Virus record (IMG/VR): IMGVR_UViG_3300047470_000523
Coordinates: 1 to 36,229 of that record
Length of the DNA stretch: 36,229 nt
DNA from: a virus
Reading direction: 5' to 3' (one strand)
Below the pieces are notes generated by a model, which made no database searches, was not told the origin of the DNA, and was given only the letters and a program-made list of their open reading frames with translations. Positions 674 to 34,283 of this stretch are shown here, in pieces; the stretch's first letter is position 1; each line of letters starts with the position of its first letter. A program made the translations under genes and the position numbers.

Positions 674-1105
674 TCAGGTGGTGGGCAAAGCCTGGGCTTC
701 GTCGGGCGCGAACACGAAGTCCGCGCGCGCATTGCGCTGCATGATCCAGATGGGGTAGGGCAGCATGTGGATGCCGTGGTCCTTGCCGGTGTGGTGCTTC
801 TTGCAGAGGACCAGCATGTTGTATTCCGAGTCGATGAAGTCCTCGGGCTTCGTGAATGTCGACCACGGGAACGCCGGGTGCAGCGTGCGCATGCGGTCCC
901 AGTCGATGCCGTCGGCGTCGGCCCACTCGGCGTGGAAGTGATGGACCTCGCGGCTCTCCTTGCAGCCGCAGATCCAGCACGGCGTGTCAAGCACCGCCAC
1001 CAGGTGATGCTTCGTGCGCGCGAACAGCGCAGACTCGGTGCGCGGTTCGTGGTCCGGGTAGAAGATGTCGACGGACAGGGTCAGCTTCTGCTCGTGCTCT
1101 TTCAT
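674..1105 (-). CDS. HNH-like zinc-binding phage protein
   Basis: The 143-residue protein has a zinc-ribbon and histidine arrangement typical of HNH folds: CWICGC near residue 44-49, a VHHFHAEW histidine cluster shortly after, and LCKKHHTG near residue 100. This pattern fits a beta-beta-alpha metal nuclease or a structural zinc site; catalytic activity is not certain. The start at 1105 was chosen because its ATG overlaps the endolysin stop as ATGA, and the longer open frame upstream of it is only the endolysin gene read in another frame. Lying inside the lysis block, it is not next to the terminase as packaging HNH proteins usually are, so a packaging role is less obvious. Confidence 0.7.
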   Translation of the reverse strand: MKEHEQKLTLSVDIFYPDHEPRTESALFARTKHHLVAVLDTPCWICGCKESREVHHFHAEWADADGIDWDRMRTLHPAFPWSTFTKPEDFIDSEYNMLVLCKKHHTGKDHGIHMLPYPIWIMQRNARADFVFAPDEAQALPTT

Positions 1106-1566
1106 GCCGCCCCCGTGCCGAGGAACATGGCCCGCTCGAGCGCGCGGCGCTTGACCAGGCCGGGCAGCACGACGTCCTTGCCGTCTACTTTGGCGTGCAC
1201 CCACAGCCGGAATTGATCGGCGGCCGCGTCGACACGGCCCTTATTGAGCAGGATCAGCAGCGTCGATTCCGCGAGCCGGCGCTGCCCGAGGTTGAACACG
1301 AACGACGCCAGCGCGTCGAACTGGCCCTGCGTCAGCGGGGCGGTGGCCAGCGAGGCGACGGACGCGGCGGCGTCCTCCAGGTCCTGCGTCAGCCAGATGT
1401 CCGCCTGCTGTACGGAGCAGGTGTCGCCCAGCTTCACGCCGCGGGTGTGGCCGACGCCGATTGTTGGGACACCAGCTGGGCACAGGTAGGCTTGCAGGCG
1501 GCAGGTCTCGAACTCGCGCACCAGCGCGCGACAAGCGCCAGAGGGGCGCATTTCAGCCAGCGGCAT
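1102..1566 (-). CDS. Endolysin, GH24 lysozyme (muramidase)
   Basis: The 154-residue protein has the size and signature of T4/P22-type GH24 lysozymes, which cut the MurNAc-GlcNAc bond of peptidoglycan. The catalytic segment spans residues 16-41, with Glu20, Cys29 and Thr35 at the spacing of the E-D-T triad (T4 E11, D20, T26). Cysteine replaces aspartate, as in many CPAG-type phage lysozymes. The TIGVGHT motif (35-41) follows, and the C-terminal helical part contains FVFNLG. There is no N-terminal signal-anchor helix, so release should depend on the holin encoded just upstream, with which it overlaps by 14 bases. Confidence 0.93.
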   Translation of the reverse strand: MPLAEMRPSGACRALVREFETCRLQAYLCPAGVPTIGVGHTRGVKLGDTCSVQQADIWLTQDLEDAAASVASLATAPLTQGQFDALASFVFNLGQRRLAESTLLILLNKGRVDAAADQFRLWVHAKVDGKDVVLPGLVKRRALERAMFLGTGAA

Positions 1567-1927
1567 GGTCGGTCTCCTTCACCGGCGCCTGCACATCCAT
1601 CGGCAGGTTGAACTTGCTGTTGGCCAGCGATTCCAGCTTCAGTAGGCCGCGGCTGCCCATGTGGGCCACGATGCCGACCAGCGCGTATTTCAGCGATGCC
1701 GGCGCATTGATCGAGTCAGCCAGGTTCGCGGTGATGATGCCGGCCAGGCCAGAGGTAGCGATCTCGCCGACCAGCTCAGTGAAGTTCCAGGCGCGCGCAT
1801 GGCCGGTCTTGATCTTTTGCCAGAACGAGACGATGCCGCCGAGTGTGGACAGGCCGATGATCCAAACCCAGGTGAGGATCGCGGTCAGGTCGTACCCGCC
1901 GTCCGGCGGAGGAGTTGAGGGATTCAT
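1553..1927 (-). CDS. Phage holin, LydA/holin_3-like
   Basis: The 124-residue protein has three hydrophobic stretches: residues about 14-36 (ILTWVWIIGLSTLGGIVSF), 50-66 (LVGEIATSGLAGIITAN) and 78-95 (YALVGIVAHMGSRGL). The charged segment QKIKTGHARAWN lies between the first two. This matches the LydA-type holin family of phages, which forms inner-membrane holes that let the endolysin reach the wall. It is the first gene of the lysis block, sits directly upstream of the GH24 gene, and follows a terminator-like hairpin (1950-1971), so it may have its own promoter or depend on read-through from the tail genes. Confidence 0.85.
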   Translation of the reverse strand: MNPSTPPPDGGYDLTAILTWVWIIGLSTLGGIVSFWQKIKTGHARAWNFTELVGEIATSGLAGIITANLADSINAPASLKYALVGIVAHMGSRGLLKLESLANSKFNLPMDVQAPVKETDHAAG

Positions 1928-24810: not shown

Positions 24811-24831
24811 AGCCGCAGGGTTACTGCGGCT
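24811..24831 (-). terminator. Terminator overlapping the end of the cro-like gene
   Basis: AGCCGCAG pairs perfectly with CTGCGGCT over a five-base loop, and on the minus strand it is followed by TTTTTCC. The stop codon of the cro-like gene lies in the loop (24821-24823). This would stop leftward transcripts right after cro, like tR1 of lambda, so early genes further left may need antitermination or read-through. Confidence 0.75.
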
Positions 24832-25066
24832 GGGATTCGGGGTGGGGCGGGGCCAGCTCGGGCCAGATGCGCTGCCAGTCGTCGGGGAACATTTCACGCC
24901 GGGTCACCAAGCCACCAGTCGCGGTCTCGATAGCCGCGCCGTAGATGACCGGGATCGGCCTGGTTCCGTCGGCCCAGCGGCTTACATCTGGGGCATGCGC
25001 GCCGATCGCTTTGGCCAGCGCCGCTTGGCGGCCGCGCTCTTGAGAGAGGTAAGTTTTGATGTCCAT
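24821..25066 (-). CDS. YdaS/Cro-like repressor
   Basis: The 81-residue protein is helical and has a helix-turn-helix typical of the YdaS/Cro group (YLSQERGRQAALAKAIGAHAPDVSRWADGTRPIPVIYGAAIETATGG, residues 6-52). It would bind the operators between itself and cI and shift the switch to lytic growth. The ATG at 25066 lies just nine bases after the leftward -10 box (TATACT). The gene is divergent from cI and ends in a terminator. The name Cro is used for position and fold; antitoxin-type YdaS proteins share the fold, but no toxin is next to it. Confidence 0.8.
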   Translation of the reverse strand: MDIKTYLSQERGRQAALAKAIGAHAPDVSRWADGTRPIPVIYGAAIETATGGLVTRREMFPDDWQRIWPELAPPHPESQPQ

Positions 25067-25074
25067 GAAGACAG

Positions 25075-25102
25075 AGTATAGCGAATCGCTAAACCTCGTC
25101 AA
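25075..25102 (-). promoter_or_regulatory. Leftward early promoter (cro promoter)
   Basis: On the minus strand TTGACG (25097-25102), a 16-base spacer and TATACT (25075-25080) form a strong sigma70-type promoter. The operator 25079-25091 lies in the spacer and touches the -10, so repressor binding should block transcription. The first gene is the cro-like gene at 25066. Confidence 0.8.
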
Positions 25103-25139
25103 TAGCGAATCGCATATTTCAAACTTTAGCGCGATGCTA
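25079..25139. promoter_or_regulatory. Three repressor operators at 24-base spacing
   Basis: Three 13-base elements read TAGCGAATCGCTA (25079-25091, perfect palindrome), TAGCGAATCGCAT (25103-25115) and TAGCGCGATGCTA (25127-25139). Their start points are exactly 24 bases apart, about two helical turns, as for cooperative dimers. They cover the leftward promoter and the probable repressor promoter. Two further copies occur at 27334 and 27368. Confidence 0.85.
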
Positions 25140-25151: not shown

Positions 25152-25892
25152 ATGCAAACAAATGACGAAGTGCGCCGACAAAACCTCCTGATCGCGATAG
25201 AGCGATCAGGCTCGGCCGCAAAGCTCGCAGAAAAGGCGAAGACGTCGGCCGCCTACCTGAGCCAGATCAAGAACCGTACGCCGGATAGCAAGTCGGGAAC
25301 GCCGAAGACGATGGGCGATGACATGGCGCGTCGCATCGAGGCTGCAATTGGCGAGCAGCCTGGATGGATGGATGTTTCCCGCGAGCCGCAAGAGGCCGCG
25401 GGCGTGAGGGCAGATATTCTCGATTTGGTGCCGGGTGCTAAACGCGTACACGCGGCCGACCAAGACGACCCGAGCATGACGCAGATCCGGAGGGTGAGGA
25501 TCAAGGTGCAGGCCGGCATCACGGGCTTCCAGGTGGAGCCGGAACACTACGATGGCGAAACCCAGGGCGTGCCCACGAAATGGATGCTGAGGGAAGGGTT
25601 GAGCAAAGATGCGCTGGTGTCGACCACCGTTCGCGGTGAGAGCATGGAGCCGGCCTTGTACGACGGTGACGTGATCGTCGTGAACACGCGCGATACGCAG
25701 CTGGTCTCCGGTGCTGTCTATGTCATCAATTACGAGGGCGAGGCGGTTGTCAAGCGAATGCTGCGTGACGCCGGGCAGTGGTGGCTGACTTCCGATAATT
25801 CAGACCAGCGAAAGTATCACCGCCAGTTATGCAAAGGCGCCGAGTGCATCGTTATCGGTAAAGTGGTTCGCAAAGAAAGCACTCATATATAA
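25152..25892 (+). CDS. CI-like repressor, XRE helix-turn-helix plus S24 peptidase
   Basis: The 246-residue protein has an N-terminal helix-turn-helix (residues about 7-45: NLLIAIERSGSAAKLAEKAKTSAAYLSQIKNR) and a C-terminal LexA/CI S24 domain. The S24 serine is Ser164 in RGESMEP and the general base is Lys201 (EAVVKRML). A likely cleavage site is Ala121-Gly122. RecA-stimulated self-cleavage on DNA damage would induce the prophage. The start at 25152 fits the PRM-like promoter, though upstream in-frame ATGs exist. It faces the cro-like gene and is followed after 11 bases by a cargo gene. Confidence 0.93.
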   Translation: MQTNDEVRRQNLLIAIERSGSAAKLAEKAKTSAAYLSQIKNRTPDSKSGTPKTMGDDMARRIEAAIGEQPGWMDVSREPQEAAGVRADILDLVPGAKRVHAADQDDPSMTQIRRVRIKVQAGITGFQVEPEHYDGETQGVPTKWMLREGLSKDALVSTTVRGESMEPALYDGDVIVVNTRDTQLVSGAVYVINYEGEAVVKRMLRDAGQWWLTSDNSDQRKYHRQLCKGAECIVIGKVVRKESTHI

Positions 25893-25903
25893 GGGCAATA
25901 AAT

Positions 25904-26503
25904 ATGAAAAGGCTGCTTTTAGTTATGGTCACACTGGGCGCTTTTGAATGCTCCGCACAGACCTCTTCGGCCACCGTTGAAGACCTCGGCAATTATATTT
26001 CCCAAAATGCTCCGCTGGCGGACAGCGGAAAGCTTCTATGGTCTGACTTCTACAAGCAAATCTTTAGCAAACTGGCTGCGCTGAATGCCTCTGGCGAAAT
26101 GCTCGAGCGAGAGAATAGGTTGATCCGCAATGCTGAGCTTTATGAGGCAGGGAAGATCGACAAGAGCGAATTCGACTATCGGCGTCGGATGGTTCAGGCA
26201 GAGGCGGCGAGCGCCGACCAGGCCGCCAGGAATGCGGAGCAGGCACAGCGAGCCATCGAGCAGCGCGGCACCGAGGCGCGAGAGCAGCAGCGGTCCAATG
26301 CCATCCTGGCCACTGCCGCCCAGTTACTACAGGCGAGCGCCCCCCGAACTTTGGCGCCGGCCCCATCGCCAGTTCCGAATGGCGGCATGACCGGTTTTCT
26401 GCAGAGCCAATCGGTTAATGGATTCTTGCGGTATTGCCGCTACAGCAACGGCGTGGTCAATACGATTAACTCAATCAACCTCTGTCCGCTGAGCATTCAA
26501 TAA
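25904..26503 (+). CDS. Exported protein of unknown function, cI-linked cargo
   Basis: The 199-residue protein has a basic start and hydrophobic core (MKRLLLVMVTLGAFECSA), a signal peptide probably cut after CSA. The mature protein has a helical, charged centre (residues about 60-125: ERENRLIRNAELYEAGKIDKSEFDYRRRMVQAEAASADQAARNAEQAQRAIEQR) and two cysteines near the C terminus (YCRYSNG...NLCPL) that could pair outside the cytoplasm. It lies 11 bases after the repressor gene and so is probably expressed in lysogeny, the position of rexAB in lambda. A cell-envelope or superinfection-exclusion role is a hypothesis. Confidence 0.7.
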   Translation: MKRLLLVMVTLGAFECSAQTSSATVEDLGNYISQNAPLADSGKLLWSDFYKQIFSKLAALNASGEMLERENRLIRNAELYEAGKIDKSEFDYRRRMVQAEAASADQAARNAEQAQRAIEQRGTEAREQQRSNAILATAAQLLQASAPRTLAPAPSPVPNGGMTGFLQSQSVNGFLRYCRYSNGVVNTINSINLCPLSIQ

Positions 26504-26509
26504 AAATAA

Positions 26510-26530
26510 TCCCCGCCAGCTGCGCGGGGA
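26510..26530. terminator. GC hairpin after the first cargo gene
   Basis: TCCCCGC pairs with GCGGGGA over a seven-base loop. The T-run is on the minus-strand side only (A-rich before it on the plus strand), so on the plus strand it is more likely an attenuating or mRNA-stabilising hairpin than a full terminator. Confidence 0.4.
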
Positions 26531-26544
26531 GTGGAGGCTAAAGA

Positions 26545-26763
26545 ATGAAAAGCGAAACGATTGCGAAAATTCAACAAGCATGCGTAGATCAGCAAAGGCT
26601 CAACGTTTCTGCGATGCGCTGTATGATTGAGATTGGAAAGTTATTCCCTGCAGGCGAAAAGCGTGAGCCGTTGGTTCAGGCACTAGAGGACATGTCTAAA
26701 CTCATCGAAAAGCAATTTAGTAGTCTGAGTGAGGCGCTGTCGGCACTGGATGAGGAGGCATAA
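26545..26763 (+). CDS. Small helical protein, cI-linked cargo
   Basis: The 72-residue protein is mostly helical (AKIQQACVDQQRLNVSAMRCMIEIGKLFPAGEKREPLVQALEDMSKLIEKQFSSLSEALSALDEEA) and may form a helical bundle. GGAGG is eight bases before the ATG. It ends directly before the next gene, so the two are probably coupled. Base composition is more AT-rich than the structural genes, as for its neighbours. No family is recognised. Confidence 0.65.
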   Translation: MKSETIAKIQQACVDQQRLNVSAMRCMIEIGKLFPAGEKREPLVQALEDMSKLIEKQFSSLSEALSALDEEA

Positions 26764-27207
26764 ATGCAGCGCGATCCCGAAAACCTGCGTTACTTTAATG
26801 ATGAGATTCGTCGTTTGCGCGATTCCGATCAAACTGGTCGGAGTACGTTTGACGGCGGCGGGGGTGGCGGCTATGATCACCCCATGGAAGAGCGAGTCAA
26901 AAAACTGGAAGAGCTGGCTGGCAAGACCGTCGAGCGCATCGTGAGCATCGAGCGTGACGTGGCTGTCATTCGGTCGAACTATGCGACGAAGGAAGATATC
27001 AAGACTGTCATAGCCGACCTACATAAAGAGATCAACGCTCAGACCTGGAAGGTCGTTGGCACAGCCGCGCTTCTGTGTGGTGCGGTTTTCTGGTTGGCCC
27101 GTAACGTTCAGCCGTTACCGTCAGCATCTACGCCAGCGGCTGTTGTTCCTACCGCGGTGCCAGCGCCCGCCGCCCCAGCCCCACGGCCGCCAACCCCCGC
27201 GCACTAA
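26764..27207 (+). CDS. Coiled-coil protein with one membrane span, cI-linked cargo
   Basis: The 147-residue protein has a charged N terminus, a glycine run (FDGGGGGGYDH, residues about 29-39), a coiled coil (MEERVKKLEELAGKTVERIVSIERDVAVIRSNYATKEDIKTVIADLHKEINAQ, residues about 41-93), one transmembrane segment (VVGTAALLCGAVFWLA, about 97-112) and a Pro/Ala-rich tail. GAGGAGG is seven bases upstream. Coiled coils of this type with one span occur in many prophage proteins of unknown role (XhlA-like appearance). The rigid coil, membrane anchor and cI linkage would suit a sensor or superinfection-exclusion protein, which is hypothetical. Confidence 0.7.
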   Translation: MQRDPENLRYFNDEIRRLRDSDQTGRSTFDGGGGGGYDHPMEERVKKLEELAGKTVERIVSIERDVAVIRSNYATKEDIKTVIADLHKEINAQTWKVVGTAALLCGAVFWLARNVQPLPSASTPAAVVPTAVPAPAAPAPRPPTPAH

Positions 27208-27247: not shown

Positions 27248-27270
27248 GCCCGCACGCGCGGGCTTTTTTT
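27248..27270 (+). terminator. Rho-independent terminator of the repressor-cargo operon
   Basis: GCCCGC pairs with GCGGGC over a four-base loop and is followed by seven Ts on the plus strand. It ends the lysogeny operon cI plus cargo and insulates it from the second early promoter about 90 bases further on. Confidence 0.9.
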
Positions 27271-27321: not shown

Positions 27322-27384
27322 TAGCGAAAGATTTAGCGCATCGCTATAAATAATGCTTGACGCAATTTAGCGAAACGCTATACG
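27322..27384 (+). promoter_or_regulatory. Rightward early promoter with repressor operators
   Basis: Two operators match those at cI: TAGCGCATCGCTA (27334-27346) and TAGCGAAACGCTA (27368-27380); a half site (TAGCGAAAG) lies at 27322. The promoter is TTGACG (27357-27362), a 16-base spacer and TATACG (27379-27384), with the second operator in the spacer touching the -10. This is the same design as the leftward promoter at 25075. It drives the genes from 27440 to the integrase. Confidence 0.82.
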
Positions 27385-33653: not shown

Positions 33654-34283
33654 TCAGTTCTGGATGGCGTTTTTAACTATTGCTTTGCATTTATTGGTGG
33701 CGAACTGGACGATGTCTCGGCATATGATTAAATCGCCAGCAATTCTTCCAATGCGCTCACCGAATGGCTCATCACCCGAAGTGCGGGGCCATGGCTCGGC
33801 AATCAATCGCAGCTCTTTAACTGCGTTCTGCATGATCGGACGTGCGCCCGCAAGTCGAGTGCATACATGCTCGGAAAGAACGATAAGAGGCAGAATTTCA
33901 TCATCAGTCCAGGCACCAGCGGCTTCGATCAAATCGGCACAGGAACGATAGCCTGCTGCCGTTTTCTGGCTCTCATTAAGAACATTTTCGACCACGCTTT
34001 GCAGCGCATCACCGATGCGTTGGAGCCTGGGGCCCAGTGCGGCGGCCGCTACAACGGCGCGGTCGTTAGCGTACTTTTGTGCTTCACGTTTTGCGGCGGT
34101 GGCGATCCGGATCGTCATCATCAACGCGGCAACGGTACCGATAGAGCCAATCCAGGTCCCCCAATCGCCAGCGCTCATGCTTTTCCAGTGGTGAGCCTGA
34201 AAAAGGGCGTTCACGCCCTCGTGCACGGCAAAAAGCCCTAACGCAGAAATGATCGCGATTGCAATGCGCTTCCAGATATTCAT
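33654..34283 (-). CDS. Membrane protein of unknown function, inverted AT-richer cargo gene
   Basis: The 209-residue protein has a hydrophobic N-terminal span (residues 7-21, AIAIISALGLFAVHE), a second one at about 41-60 (WGTWIGSIGTVAALMMTIRI), then a helical cytoplasmic-looking part with two cysteines, ending basic (NKCKAIVKNAIQN). The GDWGTWIGSIGTV-type segment recurs in bacterial proteins with two short spans. The gene is on the opposite strand to the operon it interrupts, and its base composition is clearly more AT-rich, the marks of a moron. No good Shine-Dalgarno is seen. Defence, exclusion or envelope roles are possible but unproven. Confidence 0.7.
   Translation of the reverse strand: MNIWKRIAIAIISALGLFAVHEGVNALFQAHHWKSMSAGDWGTWIGSIGTVAALMMTIRIATAAKREAQKYANDRAVVAAAALGPRLQRIGDALQSVVENVLNESQKTAAGYRSCADLIEAAGAWTDDEILPLIVLSEHVCTRLAGARPIMQNAVKELRLIAEPWPRTSGDEPFGERIGRIAGDLIICRDIVQFATNKCKAIVKNAIQN

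Follow-up and report, generated by a model that had tools for sequence, protein, structure and literature searches.

A candidate superinfection-exclusion cassette at the rex position of a lambda-type immunity locus

What do three small genes do when they lie directly behind a phage repressor? The window analyzed here, a 36,229-nt stretch of viral DNA taken as a whole (IMG/VR record IMGVR_UViG_3300047470_000523, positions 1 to 36,229), carries such a set, which we call P1, P2, and P3 (Table 1). The preliminary description of this DNA had likened their place to that of rexAB in lambda and had suggested a single envelope-acting system composed of an exported protein, a helical protein, and a membrane-anchored coiled coil. 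All three have homologues in other phages at 35–52% protein identity, and we therefore treat them as real genes.

Layout of the immunity region

P1, P2, and P3 follow a cI-like repressor in its own direction with gaps of 11 bp (cI–P1), 41 bp (P1–P2), and 0 bp (P2–P3, TAA directly followed by ATG), and the run closes at the strong terminator described earlier, with its GC stem and seven-T tail. The repressor probably starts at 25152 (MQTNDEV...), just past the operators, because its homologues align from there. Operators, which the preliminary description had not mentioned, flank the cI-P1-P2-P3 unit on both sides, and its genes are all on the repressor strand. The first OR site overlaps a P_R-like promoter, and the last OL site lies over a P_L-like one directed toward recT (RecT family) and recE (YqaJ/RecE). 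The whole window contains the operator palindrome, TAGCGNNNCGCTA, in exact form only three times, at 25079, 27334, and 27368, each time at one or the other end of the cI-cargo unit. The order cro-OR-cI-[rex]-OL-recombination is the lambda immunity layout with P1–P3 in the rex position, as had been proposed.

The three genes also differ in composition, as the preliminary description had noticed, with GC contents of 0.56 for P1, 0.47 for P2, and 0.58 for P3 compared to 0.644 for the window, and GC3 values of 0.66, 0.49, and 0.60 compared to 0.84 for recT and 0.87 for recE. We found no terminator-like site on the plus strand between cI and P1, from which we infer that P1–P3 are co-transcribed with cI in the lysogen; a promoter-like site is present within P3. 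Elsewhere in the window, beside the integrase, a membrane protein gene with no Pfam match is a second accessory-gene candidate.

Table 1. Positions of features in the window
Feature	Position	Strand	Description
Lysozyme	1102–1566	-	2e-41; late region
Holin	1553–1927	-	Phage_holin_3_3 3e-18; late region
cro/YdaS-type regulator	24821–25066	-	Pfam YdaS_toxin 6e-12, phrog_35 1e-18; divergent from cI; start inferred at ATG 25066
P_R-like promoter	25102–25075	-	overlapped by OR site at 25079
OR, three TAGCGNNNCGCTA sites	25079–25139		25079 exact, 25103 with 2 mismatches, 25127 with 1 mismatch; 24-bp steps
cI-like repressor	25152–25892	+	HTH and S24 peptidase; Pfam Peptidase_S24 4e-19, phrog_4 2e-30; first gene of the operon
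P1	25904–26503	+	199 aa, ORF list
P1 signal region	25904–25960	+	putative
Intra-operon hairpin	26511–26529	+	CCCCGC-CAGCTGC-GCGGGG, without U-tract; just 3' of P1 stop
P2	26545–26763	+	72 aa, ORF list
P3	26764–27207	+	147 aa, ORF list
Promoter-like site	26849		within P3
P3 beta-layer motif YATKED	26980–26997	+	residues 73–78; position held in 18/18 family rows
P3 single predicted TM	27052–27108	+	residues 97–115; hydropathy maximum, conserved in alignment
Intrinsic terminator of cI-P1-P2-P3	27248–27270	+	GCCCGC-ACGC-GCGGGC-TTTTTTT; 6-bp G+C stem (27248–27263), T7 tail
OL, two exact operators	27334–27380		27334–27346 and 27368–27380, over P_L
P_L-like promoter	27357		-35 TTGACG at 27357, -10 TACGAT; overlapped by last operator
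Candidate accessory membrane protein	33654–34283	-	GC3 0.57

Occupants of the slot in related phages

A scan with cI recovered 70 phage loci with relatives of the repressor (loci are given L numbers). Four of these (L031, L033, L034, and L035) encode a cI 75–91% identical to that of the window and repeat its operators at matching offsets: in them and in the window, the outer two OR sites lie at -813 to -819 and at -765 to -771 from the cI stop, and the OL pair keeps a spacing of 33–34 bp. DNA identity with the window (74–85%) ends at the cI stop, 25892 (25890 in L035), and returns at or just beyond the terminator, at 27241 in L031 and L033 and at 27327 in L035; L034 has no further DNA match to the window after the cI stop. 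The intervening cargo consists of two lipoproteins and a 77-aa ORF in L031, one lipoprotein and a helical 105-aa protein in L033, one exported protein in L034, and one membrane and one exported protein in L035, and the distance from the cI stop to the first OL site ranges from 495 to 1442 bp across the five phages. Cargo is exchanged wholesale among phages that share operators, which is the behavior of accessory cargo, and P1–P3 are best read as an accessory cassette of the rex slot. The window operator was not found as flanking pairs in more distant relatives (cI about 72% identical or less, and L046, whose cI is 75% identical over a partial match), so the operator argument rests on these five phages.

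Hairpins recur in the slots. The CCCCGC-n-GCGGGG type found 3' of P1 occurs in 9 copies in 65 kb of slots compared to 2 in 517 kb elsewhere (about 35-fold, p=1e-7), standing within a few nucleotides 3' of exported or membrane genes in the window, L009, L031, L038, L041, L052, and L053, and a terminator of the GCCCGC-n-GCGGGC-T(5–8) type ends most relatives' slots. These elements may be joints for cassette exchange or 3' elements of the mRNA.

Slot occupants are envelope-biased. Of the 156 cargo ORFs in 59 non-redundant slots, 51 carry a signal peptide or lipobox, compared to 14 of 251 downstream control ORFs (odds ratio 8, p=7e-13), and a lipobox alone is present in 22 of 156 compared to 0 of 251; both counts come from a home-made heuristic and ORF caller and are approximate, the caller having mis-started the P1 of the window and called it cytoplasmic. 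A Pfam scan of 91 cargo proteins, 90 of them encoded on phage contigs and the last being epsilon34 gp45, returned Rap1a immunity (four), surface-adhesin E (two), BRO-N, HNH, a PIN domain, and a PemK-like toxin; among the exported occupants, several have matches to small proteins of chromosomal types (Adhesin_E, DUF4156, DUF2846). The BRO-N protein, 334 aa long and located in L036 (1965–2966), matches PADLOC candidate PDC-S13 at 3e-106.

Several other occupants deserve mention. The toxin-type genes, read by eye from the pooled Pfam scan, are PemK-like in L039 (1729–2133) and PIN-domain in L070 (5728–6962). Rap1a-type periplasmic immunity proteins (PF18602, above cut-off) stand immediately after the repressor in L036 (1727–1927), L037 (5758–6105), L056 (5602–5946), and L095 (5430–5807); in the literature, the Rap1a/Tai4 family comprises T6SS immunity proteins against peptidoglycan-cleaving effectors, and the slot proteins are possible inhibitors of the wall enzymes of incoming phages. 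Small exported proteins of L028 (4442–4717), L095 (5814–6116), and L093 (6241–6648) resemble HNH nucleases by eye (DHxxAL...NLQW), with those of L028 and L095 unscored by Pfam, and could cut DNA in the periplasm. A second phage branch keeps a conserved tandem cytoplasmic pair (about 75–91 aa plus 85 aa, with LVA-x-D motifs and no Pfam match) between cI and a variable exported gene, as in L073 (5450–5719 and 5722–5976), L076, L078–L080, L082, L083, L086, and L088–L090.

What job, then, do P1–P3 have in this slot? The stretch from cI to N is a mosaic hotspot in which rexAB and bstA are found (Owen et al., 2021, PMC8585504), bstA is transcribed from the cI promoter (2020 paper from the same group, PMC7067206), and in P. 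putida a RexAB-type pair encoded behind a cI-like gene provides defense (2026, PMC12894663). Because this literature supports the rex slot as a defense hotspot, we favor superinfection exclusion at the cell envelope, with a probability of about 0.55; the view of P1–P3 as a new defense system draws on their position and on the slot occupants found elsewhere. Like lambda rexAB and the P. putida pair (PMC12894663), they share the strand of cI, lie between OR and OL, and place a soluble-protein gene before a membrane-protein gene. Like BstA of Salmonella prophage BTP1 (PMC8585504), they are accessory genes downstream of a repressor in an immunity region. Unlike BstA, which consists of one protein and acts at the stage of phage DNA replication, P1–P3 match no defense family: we obtained no PADLOC match at E≤1, no above-cut-off match in Pfam or NCBIfam, and no match to a known Rex, structural, or lysis family for any of the three.

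Homology to RexAB itself is rejected. P2 matches no RexA family and has no match to the RexA structure, or to any other entry, in a PDB sequence search. RexB is a multi-pass membrane protein, whereas P3 combines one predicted TM with a coiled coil. RexB is furthermore reported to be an ion channel (PMC8585504).

The main rival, which we consider clearly less probable, is lysogenic conversion without phage defense, with the exported protein and the membrane pair altering the host surface or its fitness under stress. It treats the slot as a general accessory site, in keeping with the chromosomal types among exported occupants, and relatives of P1 are also present on bacterial chromosomes. However, it leaves unexplained both the toxin-type, PADLOC-candidate, and Rap1a-type genes of the slot and the fast turnover of cargo among same-operator phages. 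It is improbable that P2 and/or P3 instead regulate the lysis-lysogeny switch by tuning cI or P_L. The three genes do lie between OR and OL, and a bias of the lambda switch by RexA has been reported (PMC11077077), but P1–P3 have no DNA-binding family match, and L031, L033, L034, and L035 share the operators without having P1–P3, so the switch does not need them.

P1 and the P2–P3 pair

Superinfection exclusion remains the favored reading, and the three proteins can be taken in turn. P1 had been described as exported, and it probably is, as judged from the K/R and hydrophobic residues of its N-terminus and from the clear lipoboxes of its relatives (LAGC, STGC, LSGC, LCGC, or TIGC in 6 of 6); its own lipobox, AFEC, is degenerate, so that P1 does not share the lipobox of a superinfection-exclusion lipoprotein. 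The family consists of small repressor-linked lipoproteins, and lipidation appears to have been lost in the window copy, which is probably either a decayed lipoprotein or soluble in the periplasm. Relatives occupy repressor-linked slots in L009 (42% identity), L010, L073, and L043. The AF2 model contains a helical N-terminal domain (pLDDT >90 for most of residues 30–100) and a low-confidence C-terminal two-cysteine beta module (pLDDT <50), and the family is modular, with L043 having only the cysteine module, in common with L073, behind another N-terminus. Foldseek with this model, in which the C-terminal module is poorly modeled, gave no significant match (best E 1.5 in PDB and 0.03 in BFVD). 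There were likewise no matches by tblastn of P1 and P2 against phages or of P1 against plasmids, by megablast of the window against phages, or in a genome-contig scan with P1. P1-like genes occur in 2 of 399 genomes of the Herbaspirillum order, which adds two relatives to the four in phages, and P3 also in 2 of 399; both are therefore sparse on chromosomes. Since relatives of P1 do occur there, the P1 family is not purely anti-phage.

The closest known parallels to P1 are two small phage proteins that are exported and stop superinfecting phages at the envelope, namely Ltp of S. thermophilus phage TP-J34, a superinfection-exclusion lipoprotein whose gene lies in the lysogeny module (PMC3952083), and T4 Spackle, which is periplasmic and inhibits the lysozyme domain of the tail protein gp5 (PMC7677548). 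By likeness to Spackle, a periplasmic wall-enzyme inhibitor would make sense in a rex slot. P1 itself gave no sequence or fold match and is predicted to be helical with a C-terminal module of its own, in a Gram-negative-type phage.

Members of the P3 family occur at about 20 loci in phages or prophages, in most cases downstream of a repressor. Searching with P3 alone gave 15 viral loci, and in 10 of them a repressor-type gene precedes the P3-type gene in the same orientation (ORFs read by eye). P3 matches phrog_6324 (function unknown; 1.4e-12). Homologues are present in Salmonella phages epsilon34, g341c, and NM-3, as the second gene past the repressor in epsilon34 and NM-3. P3 is built from a Gly-rich linker, a coiled coil, a beta-layer motif, a C-terminal TM, and a Pro/Ala tail, and the coiled coil and membrane segment of the preliminary description hold up well, with AF2 helices at residues 39–72 and 76–114, a hydropathy peak at 97–115, and profile matches to trimeric coiled-coil designs in PDB (5apw, 5apz, and 5apx; E 7e-4 to 3e-3). 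In 18 of 18 aligned members, an ATK-x-(D/E)-type motif follows the coiled coil and precedes the C-terminal helix, with minor substitutions in four. Hartmann et al. (PMC4786415) described [aliphatic]-A-T-K-[polar]-[DE] as the pattern of a beta-layer that forms trimers, which in DUF1640 membrane proteins is placed at the start of the C-terminal stalk. P3 is most likely a trimeric membrane-anchored stalk by these signatures. Like DUF1640/CCDC90-like proteins (PMC4786415), it has the beta-layer open a C-terminal stalk that runs into the TM anchor; unlike them, it reaches no Pfam family, PF07798 included, and only its analogues in L048 and L050 give sub-threshold CCDC90-like Pfam matches.

P2, a helical, soluble protein, is the probable partner of P3. 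By HMM, its homologues are found only in L007 and L017, where both lie directly 5' of P3 and overlap it by 17 bp. More broadly, a small ORF of 57–156 aa overlaps the start of the P3-type gene by 4–35 bp in 18 of 20 cases; the two others are the window, where P2 abuts P3, and L027, with a gap of a few bp. An exported gene upstream of the partner, where present in P3-type slots, is separated from it by about 24–125 bp. Gene overlap is frequent in phage operons, so the overlap only suggests a P2–P3 complex. The partner type changes between phages, with several unrelated-looking types, grouped by eye except for the P2 family (HMM) and the sub-threshold Pfam matches: P2-like helical (window, L007, L017); other helical (L006, L018, L054, L013, L029, L012, L005, L008); CxxC/Zn-ribbon-like (L003, L019, L023, L026, L028); pentapeptide-like (L027, L048, L050; Pfam sub-threshold); and epsilon34 gp45. 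In epsilon34, the P3 homologue gp44 (48% identity over 58 aa) is likewise second after the repressor and overlaps gp45 by 14 bp; unlike in the window, gp45 is unrelated to P2 and no exported gene is present, and the function of this pair is unannotated. In prophage contigs of Chromobacterium type, the P3-family gene has a LuxR-type regulator (by eye) just 3' of it (L003, 6655–7410; L004, 1665–2429; L005, 9113–9877), which is a possible phage-borne quorum-sensing receptor beside the immunity region.

The idea of one envelope-acting system therefore stands only in part. The envelope bias holds across the slot, but P1 and P2–P3 each occur without the other elsewhere, and for this reason the cassette is probably two functional units, P1 alone and P2–P3 coupled. 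A single envelope-spanning complex of all three, to which one probable transcript pairing an exported protein with a membrane-anchored coiled coil might point, is highly improbable and we reject it: P1-type genes lack P3 in L009, L010, and L073; P3 is accompanied by other exported genes or by none in L018, L006, L027, and epsilon34; and only P2 and P3 abut, with a hairpin between P1 and P2. The least credible reading makes these genes structural or lytic, with P1 an outer spanin-like lipoprotein and P3 an inner spanin or holin, a likeness drawn from the pairing of a lipoprotein family with a coiled-coil, single-TM protein and from a very weak match of P3 to a 'hemolysin' PHROG (E 0.15); it is rejected, in line with the earlier view that they have no role in phage assembly, as the lysis genes belong to the late region and face the opposite way (1102–1927), the TM of P3 is C-terminal rather than N-terminal, and P1–P3 sit on the probable repressor transcript with its own terminator and without a structural family match.

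Proposed action and significance

If P1–P3 do act in superinfection exclusion, the cassette would be transcribed together with cI in the lysogen. P1 would be exported to the periplasm and hinder the entry of other phages, either at DNA passage or through their tail-borne wall enzymes. P3 would form a trimeric inner-membrane stalk of coiled coil, ATKxD beta-layer, and TM anchor that holds the coupled soluble P2 at the cytoplasmic face, and the pair would act on incoming phage DNA or on the membrane with a Rex-like division of labor. The steps for P1 and for P2–P3 are drawn solely from the context of the slot, the coupling of the genes, and the layout of the domains. We tentatively suggest, as a possibility well short of an even chance, that P2–P3 is an undescribed two-part membrane exclusion module in which a conserved trimeric alpha/beta coiled-coil stalk, anchored in the inner membrane, is translationally coupled to a swappable soluble partner that sets specificity and is helical, Zn-ribbon-like, or pentapeptide-like depending on the phage, the module being sited with swappable exported proteins in a standard slot bounded by conserved hairpins.

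The rex slot is already known for prophage defense genes such as rexAB and bstA, mostly from enterobacterial phages. Here it is occupied, in a mostly environmental phage group, by strongly envelope-biased and fast-exchanged genes, nearly all of unknown function. The slot is known, whereas the P1–P3 families are undescribed as defense genes, and the design of a stalk with a swappable partner is undescribed as far as our searches show; their function is what we infer. Phages with the same operators and different cargo offer a ready comparison for the role of each cassette, and one membrane-stalk family repeatedly coupled to unrelated small partners represents a concrete, testable design.
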